A stretch of 33,609 nt of DNA from a virus. A model generated the notes under the pieces. It was not told the origin of the DNA. It saw nothing but the letters and a program-made list of their open reading frames with translations, and did no database searches. Position numbers and translations under genes: made by a program. Of this stretch, positions 890-31,561 are shown piece after piece (position 1 is the stretch's first letter; each line of letters begins with the position of its first letter). The stretch lies in the IMG/VR virus record IMGVR_UViG_3300009522_000002, positions 1 through 33,609 of that record, one strand, 5' to 3'.

Positions 890-941
890 ATCTAGTAGGT
901 GCAAAAAAATTCCATTGGGAGTCAGGAGGGAGGAAAGGCAC

Positions 942-970
942 TTGACAGTATGGATAAGTATGGATAGATT
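942..970 (+). promoter_or_regulatory. hicAB promoter with 10-bp tandem operator repeat
   Basis: A perfect -35 TTGACA (942-947) and a -10 TAGATT (965-970) are separated by 17 bases. AGTATGGATA is repeated perfectly at 947-956 and 957-966, filling the spacer. Such a repeat is a natural binding site for the HicB ribbon-helix-helix domain, which represses its own operon in known systems. Transcription should start at about 976-978, right on the hicA ATG. Confidence 0.65.
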
Positions 971-976
971 CTCTCC

Positions 977-1165
977 ATGAACAGCAGGGAAATCATCCGG
1001 GCGATTGAGGCTGAGGGCTGGTATGTGGTGGAAAAGCACGGAAGCCACTGGCAGTTTAAGCACGCATCTCGCCCTGGGCGCGTGACCGTGCCTCACCCGA
1101 AGAAGGATTTGCCCCTGGGCACCATCAAGAGCATTGAAAAGCAGTCGGGCGTCAGACTGCGCTAG
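977..1165 (+). CDS. hicA: HicA-family mRNA interferase toxin
   Basis: This 62-residue protein has the HicA dsRNA-binding-like fold signature. It opens with the typical N-terminal sequence (NSREIIRAIEAEGW) and carries the catalytic His in the GSH motif (G22-S23-H24), followed by the basic strand FKHASRPGRVTVPHP. Known HicA toxins cleave mRNA and are held inactive by HicB. The length matches the family. The ATG has no Shine-Dalgarno (it is preceded by TCTCTCC). The promoter places the RNA start at or next to the ATG, so the message looks leaderless. hicB follows 8 bases downstream in the same transcript. Confidence 0.93.
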   Translation: MNSREIIRAIEAEGWYVVEKHGSHWQFKHASRPGRVTVPHPKKDLPLGTIKSIEKQSGVRLR

Positions 1166-1173
1166 GAGGAAAT

Positions 1174-1569
1174 ATGGCTGCGTATATCGGCATCATCCAC
1201 AAGGATAAGGACAGCGACTTCGGCGTGAGCTTCCCCGACTTTCCCGGATGCGCCACGGCGGGGATCGATATGAACGAAGCGGCCTTGATGGCAAAAGAGG
1301 CCCTGGCCCTGCACATCGACGGGATGACTGAAGATGGAGAGCGCATCCCCCTTCCGTCCGCCCTCGAAGCCGTGCAGGCCCACGAGTTTGCCGAAGGGGC
1401 TCTTGCCTTCATCGTCGTTGACGTACCAGCCCCTCAGCGCCGGGCGGTCAAGGTGAGCATCACGATCCCAGAGGATGATCTGGCCAGCATTGACAACTAC
1501 GCCAAGGCGCACGGTATGGCTCGAAGCGCGTTCCTGGTGCATGCCGCCCGGGAAGCGATGCGGGGGTAG
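1174..1569 (+). CDS. hicB: HicB-family antitoxin with C-terminal ribbon-helix-helix
   Basis: The 131-residue product pairs with the toxin just upstream. Residues 1-70 form the HicB partial RNase H-like domain (DFGVSFPDFPGCATAG motif), which binds and blocks HicA. Residues about 88-131 (VKVSITIPEDDLASIDNYAKAHGMARSAFL) form a ribbon-helix-helix DNA-binding domain used for autorepression. A good AGGAGGAA ribosome site precedes ATG 1174, so antitoxin translation should exceed that of the leaderless toxin. In a temperate phage the pair may stabilise the prophage or act in abortive infection; that role is inferred. Confidence 0.93.
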   Translation: MAAYIGIIHKDKDSDFGVSFPDFPGCATAGIDMNEAALMAKEALALHIDGMTEDGERIPLPSALEAVQAHEFAEGALAFIVVDVPAPQRRAVKVSITIPEDDLASIDNYAKAHGMARSAFLVHAAREAMRG

Positions 1570-1570
1570 G

Positions 1571-1601
1571 GAAAAAGAAAAGGCCCTCGGGGGAGGGCCT
1601 T
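1571..1601 (-). terminator. intrinsic terminator of the lysogeny operon
   Basis: AAGGCCCTC (1580-1588) and GAGGGCCTT (1593-1601) form a perfect 9-bp stem with a 4-base loop. On the minus strand the stem is followed by a TTCTTTTTC tract, giving a standard rho-independent terminator just after the stop of the 1608-2045 gene. On the plus strand it follows hicB but has no T-run. Confidence 0.85.
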
Positions 1602-1607
1602 GGTGAA

Positions 1608-2045
1608 TTATTTCTTCGGAGGTGCCGGTGGTGCGGCTGGGACTTGGATTATGATCGGGGCTGGCGGCTGAGAGCTTGTAGGCTTCAAGGCGTCCAGCTT
1701 TTGTTGAAATACTTCAAATTTTTGATCAATCCTTTCAAGCGTCTTGTCGGCCTTGTCATTGGCTGCCCTGGCGTACTCTTTGTTCTGATCGAGGGAATGC
1801 TGGAACCAAGAGGCCTGGAACTGGGCAAGCCCAATCACTGCCGAGACAATACCGATCCCAACCCCCAATATCCACCAGCGGAGGTTTCTGACCTCTCCCT
1901 TGATATCACAGAGGTCGTCTTCCACCCGGGTTAGGCGATGTTCGTAGGTGCCGTCCATGCCCCCAGAATTACCATCTCCACCCGTGGGGTCAAGGGGTTC
2001 CCCCGGAAGATTCTCCCTCTGGAATGCCGGTATTATTTTTGCCAT
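1608..2045 (-). CDS. membrane-anchored coiled-coil protein, last gene of lysogeny operon
   Basis: The 145-residue product has a charged N-terminal region with a heptad segment (about 35-55, EHRLTRVEDDLCDIKGEVRNL). One hydrophobic membrane span follows (57-77, WWILGVGIGIVSAVIGLAQFQ), then a long coiled coil (83-121) and a Pro/Ala-rich tail (122-145). No enzyme motif is visible. The layout resembles small phage membrane proteins of the XhlA/DUF1640 style, but I cannot assign a family. Its ATG lies one base after the stop of the upstream Cys-rich gene, with AGGAT as ribosome site, so it is co-translated with the repressor operon. It probably sits in the inner membrane of lysogens; an exclusion role is conjecture based on position. 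Confidence 0.75.
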   Translation of the reverse strand: MAKIIPAFQRENLPGEPLDPTGGDGNSGGMDGTYEHRLTRVEDDLCDIKGEVRNLRWWILGVGIGIVSAVIGLAQFQASWFQHSLDQNKEYARAANDKADKTLERIDQKFEVFQQKLDALKPTSSQPPAPIIIQVPAAPPAPPKK

Positions 2046-2046
2046 A

Positions 2047-2466
2047 TTATCCTGCTATTTTGTTTTTAATTTCTTCCGACATTTTTGCAATTCTTATTAG
2101 CTGCTCTTTTATTGACGCATTCTTGAAATTGCCAAACATGTCTTCTATTGACTTTGGATTGTATATCCATGATATTGCGTATTCTTTTTCTCTTTCGTTG
2201 CTAATCAAATATTCAAATTCATCTCTGTCTAAAGACCACGCCGTTATCGAGCCACATTCTTTGCATTCAGACGTAAATGCCATTCCCATTATTAAGTTAG
2301 TTGTAAGTAATCCTGGGGCGAACCATGGCAATTCACTTTCAATTTCTTCTTTGCATAATGCAAGAGAAAACCACTCTGGCATGTATGGTATTCCCACCAA
2401 TGAAAAATATGTCAGCAAGCTACCGCACTGGCATTTTTTCTTTAAAAGTCTCTCGGGTGGTTTCAT
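2047..2466 (-). CDS. Cys-rich, zinc-ribbon-like protein of unknown function
   Basis: The 139-residue protein carries CxC at 12-14, a lone Cys38 and CxxC at 68-71 (ECKECGS), suggesting a zinc site built from two knuckles. A helical charged tail (90-139) follows. The start ATG overlaps the stop of the deoxyribosyltransferase-like gene by four bases (ATGA), so the two are translationally coupled. The gene is markedly AT-richer than its neighbours, which suggests later acquisition. I do not recognise a family. Confidence 0.75.
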   Translation of the reverse strand: MKPPERLLKKKCQCGSLLTYFSLVGIPYMPEWFSLALCKEEIESELPWFAPGLLTTNLIMGMAFTSECKECGSITAWSLDRDEFEYLISNEREKEYAISWIYNPKSIEDMFGNFKNASIKEQLIRIAKMSEEIKNKIAG

Positions 2467-2894
2467 ATAATAGCCTCCTTGATCCTTTCCACCAACTCCC
2501 CCACGTCCCTCACGATCACCTTACAGCTCCCGTGGATCATGGAGTTGACCACGGCCCCGGGCACATCCCCGGCTTGGCGGAAGTCCGTCCTGATCCCGAT
2601 CACGGGGATTCCCCGCGCGTGCGCATAGCCGATCTCCCAGGCCGTGCCGTCGTCCACCTGGGGGCCATCCAGCAGGGCCACCACAAGGTCACAGGCAGCC
2701 AGAGCATCCCGACAAACTTCCATCACCCGGCGCGGGCCATCCGCTCCCCAGCTCGCAATCTCGGCCTGGTCGAACAGCTCGTAAGGCCAAATGGCCGTGT
2801 GCCTCGTCTCGGCCTCAATACGGGCCTTGGTGGCACGGTGCCATGCTTGCTTGGCTTCGGAGAAGAGAGGGCCGGCGAGGTAGAGTGTGGGCAT
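2463..2894 (-). CDS. nucleoside 2-deoxyribosyltransferase-like protein
   Basis: The 143-residue product matches the nucleoside 2-deoxyribosyltransferase fold (PF05014 type). It has a N-terminal YLAGPLF strand-loop, a D-x-V-V-A-x-L-D-G segment (69-77), and DDGTAWEIGYA (81-91) with Glu87 at the nucleophile position. Enzymes of this family break and remake the N-glycosidic bond of (deoxy)nucleosides or nucleotides; some relatives only hydrolyse. The substrate here is unknown. I chose ATG 2894 because it overlaps the repressor stop as TAATG and begins exactly at the conserved strand; an upstream ATG at 2918 would add 8 unrelated residues. It is co-transcribed with the prophage repressor, so it should be made in lysogens. 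Confidence 0.85.
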   Translation of the reverse strand: MPTLYLAGPLFSEAKQAWHRATKARIEAETRHTAIWPYELFDQAEIASWGADGPRRVMEVCRDALAACDLVVALLDGPQVDDGTAWEIGYAHARGIPVIGIRTDFRQAGDVPGAVVNSMIHGSCKVIVRDVGELVERIKEAII

Positions 2895-3628
2895 TATTTC
2901 CCAGAAAGATCCGACCACGACCAGATGCAGCGCCCGACGATGGCGTTGGAAATCACACCACCGTAGTCAGCTCCCAGGCTGTACGATGTAGGAGGGTTTT
3001 CCGCCGCGTTGTCGCTGTAAAACGTGACCAGGGTATCCCCGTTGCGCTGCTTCGTGGCCACGCGCTTGACCATGGCCCCGCTATCTTGCCCCGGCTCTCG
3101 CACCAGGAATATCCCTCCTGGCTTGTCCGGCGTGAAGTCGTCCCGGTTCACCAGGACGATATCCCCTGGCCTGAGCAAGGGAATCATGGAGGTTGACCCT
3201 TTCTCGATTTCCACGGCCAGGAGGTTACGCCGGAACTGGATAGCATGCTGATGTCGGTAGACCAGCACCCAGCTCCGAATCAAGCCGGTGGACATTACGC
3301 CTGGACCGGCACCGACCTCACCCACGAGGGGGACGGCGAAATAATCTTCTTGGGGCGGTAGATTCTGACCGCTCCCCGCCGGGACTATTTTCGCGTCCAC
3401 CCACCTAACATCCTTTGCGAGTTCAGATCTTTCGTCAGGAAAAGTGAGCTTCGCCCCCATGAAATCAAGGATTTTTGCCAGGTTATCTGCCCTCATAGAT
3501 CCCTGGCCTTTCAAAAGCCGAGAAATTGCTGACTGAGAAACCCCTGTTTTTTCTGCCAAAGCTTCTTGCTTCATACCTTGGCGCGCAACACCATCCTTAG
3601 CGTCATGAAGGATTCCCATTTTTTCCAT
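2894..3628 (-). CDS. CI/LexA-type prophage repressor, HTH plus S24 peptidase
   Basis: The 244-residue protein has an XRE-type HTH at about 18-58 (QEALAEKTGVSQSAISRLLKG) and a C-terminal S24 autopeptidase domain (about 95-235). Catalytic Ser147 lies in GSTSM and Lys188 in AMVKRV. A likely Ala107-Gly108 cleavage bond lies in VGEVGAGPG. All parts needed for RecA-stimulated self-cleavage are present, so induction by DNA damage is expected. The start is fixed by AGGGGAGG, 6 bases before ATG 3628. It is transcribed away from the Cro-like gene across a shared switch region and is first in a four-gene operon ending at the 1571-1601 terminator. Confidence 0.95.
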   Translation of the reverse strand: MEKMGILHDAKDGVARQGMKQEALAEKTGVSQSAISRLLKGQGSMRADNLAKILDFMGAKLTFPDERSELAKDVRWVDAKIVPAGSGQNLPPQEDYFAVPLVGEVGAGPGVMSTGLIRSWVLVYRHQHAIQFRRNLLAVEIEKGSTSMIPLLRPGDIVLVNRDDFTPDKPGGIFLVREPGQDSGAMVKRVATKQRNGDTLVTFYSDNAAENPPTSYSLGADYGGVISNAIVGRCIWSWSDLSGK

Positions 3629-3651
3629 GTACTGCCTCCCCTTAAGAGTGT

Positions 3652-3711
3652 CATATTTGAATATGGGTTATGGCGTTGCAAAATTATTCATCTTCGGGTA
3701 CACACTACTCC
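3652..3711. promoter_or_regulatory. divergent lysis/lysogeny switch region
   Basis: CATATTTGAATATG (3652-3665) is a dyad with AATATG half-sites between the repressor and Cro-like genes. For rightward transcription, TTGCAA (3676-3681) and TACACA (3699-3704) are 17 bases apart. TTGCAA is its own reverse complement, so a leftward promoter may share it, with a weak -10 inside the dyad. TTCGGGTA (3693-3700) overlaps the rightward -10 and is the inverse of the TACCCGAA word at 846 and 878. Repressor and Cro binding here is inferred. Confidence 0.55.
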
Positions 3712-3918
3712 ATGGACATCATCCAAGATTTTCAAGCCGAATTTCAGCGCAAAGGCTGGACCCAGATGGAGTGGGAAGAGGCTACCGGCATACCCCAGTC
3801 CACGATTTCACGGCTCCTTGAGGGGAACTGCGACCCTCGTCTTTCGACGATCAAGCGCTTGACCCCATTCTTGTACGGCCCTTCCCCCGTCCCCCCGAAC
3901 ACACCGGACCCCTCATGA
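3712..3918 (+). CDS. Cro-like HTH regulator
   Basis: A 68-residue protein consisting of little more than one XRE-type HTH (QMEWEEATGIPQSTISRLLEG). It is divergent from the repressor, which fits Cro. The longer frame begins at ATG 3670, but those 14 residues are not HTH-like and lie over the predicted promoter. ATG 3712 starts at the first helix and has no ribosome site. With -10 TACACA ending 7 bases upstream, the transcript would start on or next to this ATG and be leaderless. The product should repress the repressor operon during lytic growth; that is inferred from position. Confidence 0.8.
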   Translation: MDIIQDFQAEFQRKGWTQMEWEEATGIPQSTISRLLEGNCDPRLSTIKRLTPFLYGPSPVPPNTPDPS

Positions 3919-30384: not shown

Positions 30385-31407
30385 TCAGCCCTCGGACCTA
30401 CCCGTCCGGGGGCTGTCTTTTTGCTCACCGAACACCACGGCAAGCGTGTTGTCCACAAACCCCAGCGACCGGATGTACCGCGCCGTGGTGTTCGGGCTCT
30501 TGTGCCTCAAGATGGCCTGGATGGTGGGAATGTCCACATTCGCCTTAGCCAGGATTGAAGCTGTCAGGTGACGGATGCCATGGAAGCCGAAGGGCTTGAC
30601 GTCGGCACGCTTGCACAGCCTTTCCATGTAGTGTTGCCGCGAGGTGAACGGCTGGCCGTCTTCCTGGCTGAACACGAACATGGACCGCTTGATCTTGCCG
30701 TGATCCTCAAGCGCCCGGCGTAGTTGTGGTGTCATGGGAAGCCACGCATACTCCAGGCTTCCGTCCTTGGTCTTCCGGGTGGCCAGCCTGATACGGCCCT
30801 GGGCCAGGTCCACGTCCGGCCAGGTCAGGCGGAACAACTCTCCACGCCTGGCCGCCGTGTGCAGGGCCGTGAGCAGAAAGGCTTGGTCCTCCCGGCTGGC
30901 CGCTGCGTGGGCCTTCCAGAAGTCGTCCTCGGTGGGCATGTGCCGCTCTCGCGCATCGTAGGAGAAACGCTTGATCGACCTGAATGGGTTTCGGTCCGAA
31001 AGGGCCAGGTAGTCGTGGCCCCAGGCCCAGGCAGCTGACAGGTTTTTCCGGTCCTTATTGGCCTCGTTGGCACTTCCCTTGGCCCGATGCCGCAGGGCAT
31101 CCAGGATGAGACGCGGGTCGATGCTCTCTGCCGGCGTCTCGCGGAGAACGAACGAGTACAAGTTGCGAAACGCCCTTACCTTCTCCTGATACGTGAACTT
31201 GACATATCTCTCCTTGGCGTAATCCAAGTAGGCGTTGGACAGATCAACTACAGTGACGGTCGGCCGATCTTCCTGTTCCCATACCTCGGCGTCTTGCGAG
31301 GCCTCCCACTTGGTGGCTTCGCCCTTCGTGCGGAAGACGCGTTGTCGCCGCTTCCCGTTTATCATCTTCGACGCTCGGTACCTGCCGTTCGGTTGCTTGT
31401 ACGGCAT
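30385..31407 (-). CDS. int: tyrosine-recombinase integrase
   Basis: The 340-residue enzyme has an AP2-like arm-binding N-terminus (PYKQPNGRYRASKMINGKRRQRVFRTKGEA), a core-binding helical domain (about 60-150) and the catalytic domain. Catalytic residues are Arg187 (AARRGEL), Lys at 212-214 (RKTKDG), His276-x-x-Arg279 (HGIRH), His302 and the nucleophile Tyr311 (TTARYIRS). I chose ATG 31407, with GGAGA upstream, at the start of the N-terminal domain; the open frame to 31488 has no site. It lies beside attP, whose tRNA-Glu core it should recombine. Confidence 0.94.
   Translation of the reverse strand: MPYKQPNGRYRASKMINGKRRQRVFRTKGEATKWEASQDAEVWEQEDRPTVTVVDLSNAYLDYAKERYVKFTYQEKVRAFRNLYSFVLRETPAESIDPRLILDALRHRAKGSANEANKDRKNLSAAWAWGHDYLALSDRNPFRSIKRFSYDARERHMPTEDDFWKAHAAASREDQAFLLTALHTAARRGELFRLTWPDVDLAQGRIRLATRKTKDGSLEYAWLPMTPQLRRALEDHGKIKRSMFVFSQEDGQPFTSRQHYMERLCKRADVKPFGFHGIRHLTASILAKANVDIPTIQAILRHKSPNTTARYIRSLGFVDNTLAVVFGEQKDSPRTGRSEG
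30386..30421 (+). terminator. terminator between fibre genes and integrase
   Basis: CAGCCCTCGGAC (30386-30397) and GTCCGGGGGCTG (30404-30415) pair at 11 of 12 positions with a 6-base loop, followed by TCTTTTT. It ends the rightward late transcript and lies inside the last codons and stop of the leftward integrase gene. On the minus strand a shorter T-run (ATTTT) follows, so it may work both ways. Confidence 0.8.
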
Positions 31408-31561
31408 TGTATTTCTCCAATCTCTCTCTGTAATTGTCAGGGAACATGACGGCCCCACGGGGGATAGCCTGGACGCCGCCCAGCGCACGCTTATGGCGGT
31501 ACACCCAGGCTACCGACCTGCCAAGGGCTGCGGCGATGTCAGGGGCGCTCAAGTCGGCCAT
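31244..31561 (-). CDS. excisionase-like HTH protein overlapping int
   Basis: The 105-residue frame starts at ATG 31561, two bases after the stop of the 31564-32514 gene. Residues 1-50 (MADLSAPDIAAALGRSVAWVYRHKRALGGVQ... RGAVMFPDNYRERL) form a winged HTH of the MerR/excisionase kind. From about residue 52 the frame runs over the start of int in another phase, and its C-terminal half is low-complexity (ARRRGMGTGRSADRH). The true product may matter only for its first part. Likely a recombination directionality factor. Confidence 0.65.
   Translation of the reverse strand: MADLSAPDIAAALGRSVAWVYRHKRALGGVQAIPRGAVMFPDNYRERLEKYNAVQATERQVPSVEDDKREAATTRLPHEGRSHQVGGLARRRGMGTGRSADRHCS

Follow-up and report, generated by a model that had tools for sequence, protein, structure and literature searches.

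A deoxyribosyltransferase gene and a coupled gene pair behind the repressor of a Desulfovibrionaceae temperate phage: a candidate lysogen-protecting cargo operon

Introduction

Why should a phage encode a nucleoside 2'-deoxyribosyltransferase (NDT), a four-cysteine protein (CYS), and a coiled-coil membrane protein (CC) directly behind its repressor? The question is raised by the virus record IMGVR_UViG_3300009522_000002 (33.6 kb), the whole 33,609 nucleotides of which were analysed and are called the window below. An earlier note on this DNA had placed the genes in the rexAB position and proposed a sensor/effector/anchor set. The rexABpp genes of P. putida, which lie behind a CI-like repressor, protect against phages (PMC12894663). 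Our preferred reading, to which we give a probability of about 45%, is that the repressor, NDT, CYS, and CC genes form a cargo (lysogenic-conversion) operon of a Desulfovibrionaceae temperate phage, located in a repressor-adjacent slot and protecting the lysogen.

Results and Discussion

Operon layout and phage context

The minus-strand unit comprised four tightly packed open reading frames between positions 3628 and 1608. The first gene (2894-3628) encoded a CI-like repressor with an HTH and an S24 peptidase-type domain. Pfam gave HTH_3 at 1.9e-10 and S24 at 8.8e-4, the latter below the cut-off, and in the alignment the AG cleavage site, Ser147, and Lys188 were conserved. The repressor was joined by TAATG to NDT (2463-2894, minus strand; 143 aa), and NDT by ATGA to CYS (2047-2466, minus strand), the ATG of which was preceded by AAGGAGG. 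One base separated CYS from CC (1608-2045, minus strand). An intrinsic terminator between CC and the convergent hicB closed the unit (1580-1601, minus strand), its hairpin (1601-1580) and T-rich tail giving an MFE of −16.4 kcal/mol and a z of −4.6 against shuffles. The four-gene operon with its junctions, its strong terminator, and an S24 repressor as first gene was thus found as the earlier note had described it. Judged from the gene order, the repressor promoter would drive all four genes in the lysogen, where the cargo is presumably made.

A small Cro-like HTH gene (3712-3918, plus strand; HTH_31 at 1.8e-5, just under the cut-off) diverged from the repressor, and many related repressors likewise adjoined small divergent HTH genes. 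The record also held an integrase (30385-31488), a portal protein, and a major head protein. The divergent Cro-like gene and the integrase mark the immunity region of a temperate phage; the integrase, portal, and head genes with the HicAB/Cro flanks identify the record as a whole as a temperate phage.

On the other side of the operon, and outside it, lay the convergent HicAB module (977-1569), composed of a HicA toxin (977-1165, plus strand; PF07927, 4e-20) and a HicB antitoxin (1174-1569, plus strand; PF15919, 2e-32). Two perfect copies of TACCCGAATATG were observed upstream of hicAB (846-857 and 878-889), and a third copy with one mismatch (3700-3689) in the gap between the two divergent regulators (3629-3711), presumed to hold their promoter and operator region. 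In 100 shuffles this number of matches, with 2 mismatches allowed at most, was never reached. TACCCGAATATG is a candidate shared operator, through which the repressor or Cro may act near hicAB too. A tandem repeat with a 66-bp unit (4.2 copies, matching at 98%) filled positions 1-274 at the left end of the record. By its length such a unit would specify 22 residues per repeat, and the stretch is probably either flanking host DNA or part of a repeat protein truncated where the record stops.

The repressor-adjacent slot

To compare the site among relatives, slots were collected from the repressor and not from NDT. Counting that of the window, 18 distinct slots behind repressors of the prophage type could be read; many weaker repressor matches, probably chromosomal regulators, were excluded from the count. 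The genes of the relatives came from simple, crude ORF calling, their cargo was read by eye, and the numbers are small. Over about two dozen repressor loci the cargo differed behind the same flanking repressor, which makes this site a slot with variable cargo.

A complete DarTG system (L151, 4713-6375; PADLOC 1.5e-62 and 3.4e-106) and a complete IetAS system (L219, 1337-4768; PADLOC 9.9e-79 and 4.4e-56) each lay directly behind a window-type S24 repressor. The claim that this position carries lysogen-protecting genes gained support here, as DarTG and IetAS occupy the very same place in sister prophages. Two complete known defence systems in 18 slots compare with about 0.08 expected from 5.2 known systems per genome (PMC9090908), a rough Poisson p of 0.003 on hand-read cargo. 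Other slots contained an HSDR_N protein (L145) or paired membrane proteins. In one slot an MliC-domain membrane protein of the lysozyme-inhibitor type, a domain with no known defence role, preceded NDT (L005, 5544-5984).

Apart from the window, 17 slots were available, and 5 of them contained an NDT where a rough estimate predicts about 0.004. In four of these five the distance to the repressor was no more than 0.7 kb, and in the fifth it was about 3.3 kb. An NDT-led search gave three further loci. Two of them (L040 and L053) held PLD-NDT pairs; in the third (L010, 3060-4017) a prophage NDT behind an S24 repressor was followed by a ThsB-type TIR gene (PADLOC 3.1e-38), with no ThsA seen nearby by eye. 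We found no paper describing a repressor-operon cargo slot of Desulfovibrionaceae prophages.

Family, fold, and active site of NDT

The second gene product matched Nuc_deoxyrib_tr (PF05014) at 1.7e-21, with 77 bits against a cut-off of 28.8. Its AlphaFold2 model was confident (pLDDT 87), and the best PDB match was DpNDT (7O62; TM 0.75-0.80, Foldseek E 8e-10), other NDTs also ranking at the top in both Foldseek and profile searches. Glu87, Asp81, and Asn117 aligned with the nucleophile, the sugar-pocket Asp, and the neighbouring-subunit Asn of solved NDTs (7o62, 8qc0, and 1s2d), and Met119 with their sugar-pocket Met. The roles of the nucleophile and sugar-pocket residues are described in PMC4270796, the text of which, together with the residue numbering, indicates that 1s2d is the L. 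helveticus purine enzyme. Among 96 homologues Asp81 was conserved in all 96, Glu87 in 95, and Asn117 and Met119 in 93-94, and Tyr5 was essentially invariant. The protein is a true NDT-family member, and the structural match and alignment confirmed what the earlier note had read from the sequence, a base-cleaving fold with Glu87 at the nucleophile position. NDT is inferred from these conserved residues to be catalytically competent and is predicted to act on deoxynucleosides.

The Asp that contacts the base in characterised NDTs (Asp75 in LhPDT, D62 in CtNDT) is replaced here by Cys61. This Asp was treated as a common feature of characterised NDTs and not as required for membership. Column 61 held Cys in 67, Asp in 17, and Asn in 12 of the 96 homologues, the Asn sequences including all ten of the Methanothrix group that were listed. 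Cys61 predicts an altered base preference or rate. The active site did not differ between the slot and chromosomal copies of the clade.

Two other assignments were considered. The only PADLOC match of NDT was a weak one to ThsB (0.007), and no TIR or ThsA model exceeded its cut-off in the four operon proteins, so NDT was not taken as a TIR/Thoeris protein. A retron effector was also rejected, with no PF00078 reverse transcriptase in the record and no Rfam RNA match in the window.

Origin and spread of NDT

A tree of the 96 NDTs placed the window copy, with support of 100/97, inside a group of seven genes from outside the slot, and each of seven related genomes carried one copy of this gene. 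Elsewhere, chromosomal NDTs kept constant neighbours, a lysyl-tRNA-synthetase-like gene in Methanothrix and a GreA-like gene in Solidesulfovibrio (both named by eye). By descent, therefore, NDT is not a dedicated defence protein; it has a relative among the chromosomal genes of the likely host group, from which it probably derives. The earlier note had set its proposal against a housekeeping salvage homologue with no effect on phage growth, and of these two parts the tree bears out the homology.

One of these seven genomes, G202, showed where such a gene may have come from. Its single close HicB homologue (76%) lay about 1 kb from NDT, and the two genes converged just as they do in the window, but a nitroreductase-like gene took the place of CYS-CC between them. 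Window positions 941-1547 and 2488-2894 were 74-78% identical in DNA to this locus (L245, 2721-3407 and 4270-4676), and the intervening DNA differed. The phage may have acquired HicAB and NDT from a G202-like chromosome, or the two loci may have swapped DNA, in either direction.

The repressor-linked NDTs of other prophages were spread over several clades, and supported branches forced at least 5 label changes, which suggests that NDTs were probably recruited into the slot repeatedly. Clustering of slot NDTs on the tree was weak (32 of 500 shuffles were as low).

These results bear on the strongest alternative to a protective operon, that NDT is a captured nucleoside-salvage gene which helps the lysogen to recycle deoxynucleosides, with CYS and CC as unrelated passengers and no anti-phage role. 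The placement of NDT among single-copy chromosomal genes, its conserved chromosomal positions in Methanothrix and Solidesulfovibrio, and its best structural match to an enzyme, DpNDT, all favour metabolic use. Salvage alone, however, does not explain why NDTs would have been recruited several times into a slot that also carries known anti-phage systems, and a second NDT would bring little gain where the host of the lysogen already has one. We consider salvage cargo a real possibility, ranking close behind phage exclusion.

The CYS and CC proteins

CYS carries a CxC motif at residues 12/14 and a CxxC motif at residues 68/71, and these cysteines were kept in all three homologues. Its structure model was poor (pLDDT 54). 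CC has one strongly hydrophobic, transmembrane-like stretch at residues 58-76, a short coiled coil, a further helical segment, and a Pro-rich tail. No Pfam family exceeded its cut-off for either protein, and PADLOC gave no match at E<=1. The hits of CYS to ERCC4 (0.0035) and YccF (0.046), below the cut-offs, and that of CC to SCIMP (0.11) were taken as chance.

Both families were rare. Three CYS members are known, from the window, the L007 prophage, and the genome G001, with 40-41% identity across the three loci. Among 348 genomes of the order, G001 alone had CYS; viral contigs gave L007 alone, and phage and plasmid records gave none. Window-type CC matched in only 4 of 345 genomes and in none of the viral contigs scanned. 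In all three CYS loci CC followed CYS directly, either overlapping or one base apart. The CYS gene of the window has 36% G+C within a window of 61%, and those of L007 and G001 were likewise AT-rich in G+C-rich DNA. The AT content of CYS is far above that of NDT, and so the two genes probably differ in origin.

Does the gene set recur as a whole?

The L007 prophage showed the order repressor-CYS-CC-NDT. All four families were present with the order changed, and it was the single recurrence of the full set. In G001 an S24 repressor was followed by three small genes, CYS, and CC, and the NDT of this genome sat elsewhere. Most slot NDTs stood without CYS and CC, either alone or with other partners.

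A comparable layout was observed at L006 (5259-5847) and L160 (1519-2134), where a small zinc-ribbon protein and a coiled-coil membrane protein were encoded in overlapping frames. L006 also carried an NDT. Its zinc-ribbon protein was weakly Lar-like and differed from CYS, and the alignment gave no support to a common origin of the two.

A single machine in which CYS senses infection, CC anchors, and NDT is the effector was the proposal of the earlier note. The renewed meeting of all four families in L007 speaks for it, as does the NDT with CC and a different zinc-ribbon protein in L006. Co-occurrence was therefore observed, but such cases were rare. The claim that NDT, CYS, and CC are one set was not supported, since NDT also stands by itself or beside different genes, G001 has CYS-CC with its NDT elsewhere, and NDT nests among single-copy chromosomal genes. 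The varying gene order and the probably different source of CYS also count against it. Because NDT and CYS-CC assort independently, the three-protein machine is weakly supported, and we regard it as improbable. On these neighbourhoods, CYS and CC are better described as staying together, with NDT a neighbour that is independent of them.

Possible function of the operon

A use by the phage itself is slightly less probable again. NDT could tune the deoxynucleotide supply on induction, or the genes could modulate the lysis-lysogeny switch, as lambda RexA does by biasing it (PMC11077077). Both the cleavage site and the catalytic residues of the repressor are retained, which ties the region to induction; genes on the repressor transcript, however, are not expected to rise once the repressor is cleaved, and phages whose repressors are similar have exchanged what the slot contains. 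Neutral drift of recent cargo without selected function would fit the low G+C of CYS and the rarity of CYS and CC, but is very improbable given the intact frames, the packed and coupled junctions, the kept catalytic residues, and CYS-CC pairs conserved across three loci at 40-41% CYS identity.

The protective cargo operon that we prefer would work as follows. NDT would cleave and exchange the base of 2'-deoxynucleosides via a Glu87-deoxyribose intermediate, as its family and conserved residues suggest. CYS and CC would form a separate, translationally coupled cytosolic/membrane pair. The lysogen would be shielded from competing phages as NDT alters the deoxynucleoside pool or modified nucleosides, and as CYS-CC acts through a Rex-like membrane response. 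The operon plausibly acts against other phages, by an analogy of location with the other contents of the slot and with RexAB-type loci. Against defence stand the lack of a PADLOC match for CYS and CC, the ordinary chromosomal nature of NDT in relatives, and the presence, among the slot cargo, of genes with no known defence role.

A more far-reaching version is unlikely, namely an undescribed phage-exclusion locus in which a Cys61-type NDT would be anti-phage through infection-made deoxynucleosides, CYS-CC would be a new Rex-like sensor/membrane pair, and the site an unrecorded defence slot of Desulfovibrionaceae prophages. If it is true, a well-studied biocatalytic enzyme family would join the tools of phages in lysogens, and the S24-repressor slots of Desulfovibrionaceae would be a ready list of unknown cargo located where DarTG and IetAS sit. 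A phage would then, moreover, have taken over an enzyme gene that is common in hosts, and perhaps a linked HicAB module along with it.

Comparison with known systems

The nearest solved NDT, DpNDT of Desulfotalea psychrophila, has the same fold as the window NDT, the same Glu as nucleophile, and the same Asp, Asn, and Met in the sugar pocket; the window NDT differs in being encoded directly behind a phage repressor. Thoeris combines a TIR protein, ThsB, with a ThsA effector, and none of the four operon proteins matched a TIR or ThsA model above its cut-off. The NDT-like effectors of retrons (PMC12548924, PMC12887533) belong to the same enzyme superfamily and are used in phage defence, whereas the window NDT is a single 143-residue domain without an accompanying reverse transcriptase or Rfam RNA.

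The defence hotspots of P2 prophages and P4 satellites (PMC9122126) resemble the window slot in their fixed phage position and swapped cargo, including known anti-phage systems. The window slot belongs to another phage group (Desulfovibrionaceae) and another position, the repressor operon.

Lambda rexAB and RexABpp resemble the operon in arrangement. In both, as in the window, genes for a soluble and a membrane protein (here CYS and CC) lie packed on the same strand just behind a CI-type repressor. The window differs by the one predicted membrane stretch of CC and by the added enzyme gene. CYS and CC gave no significant Rex-type match in Pfam, PHROG, NCBIfam, or PADLOC, libraries that may lack Rex models, and the operon is not classed as RexAB. 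The set of NDT, CYS, and CC is new; the kind of locus, a rexAB-like position behind the repressor, is already known.
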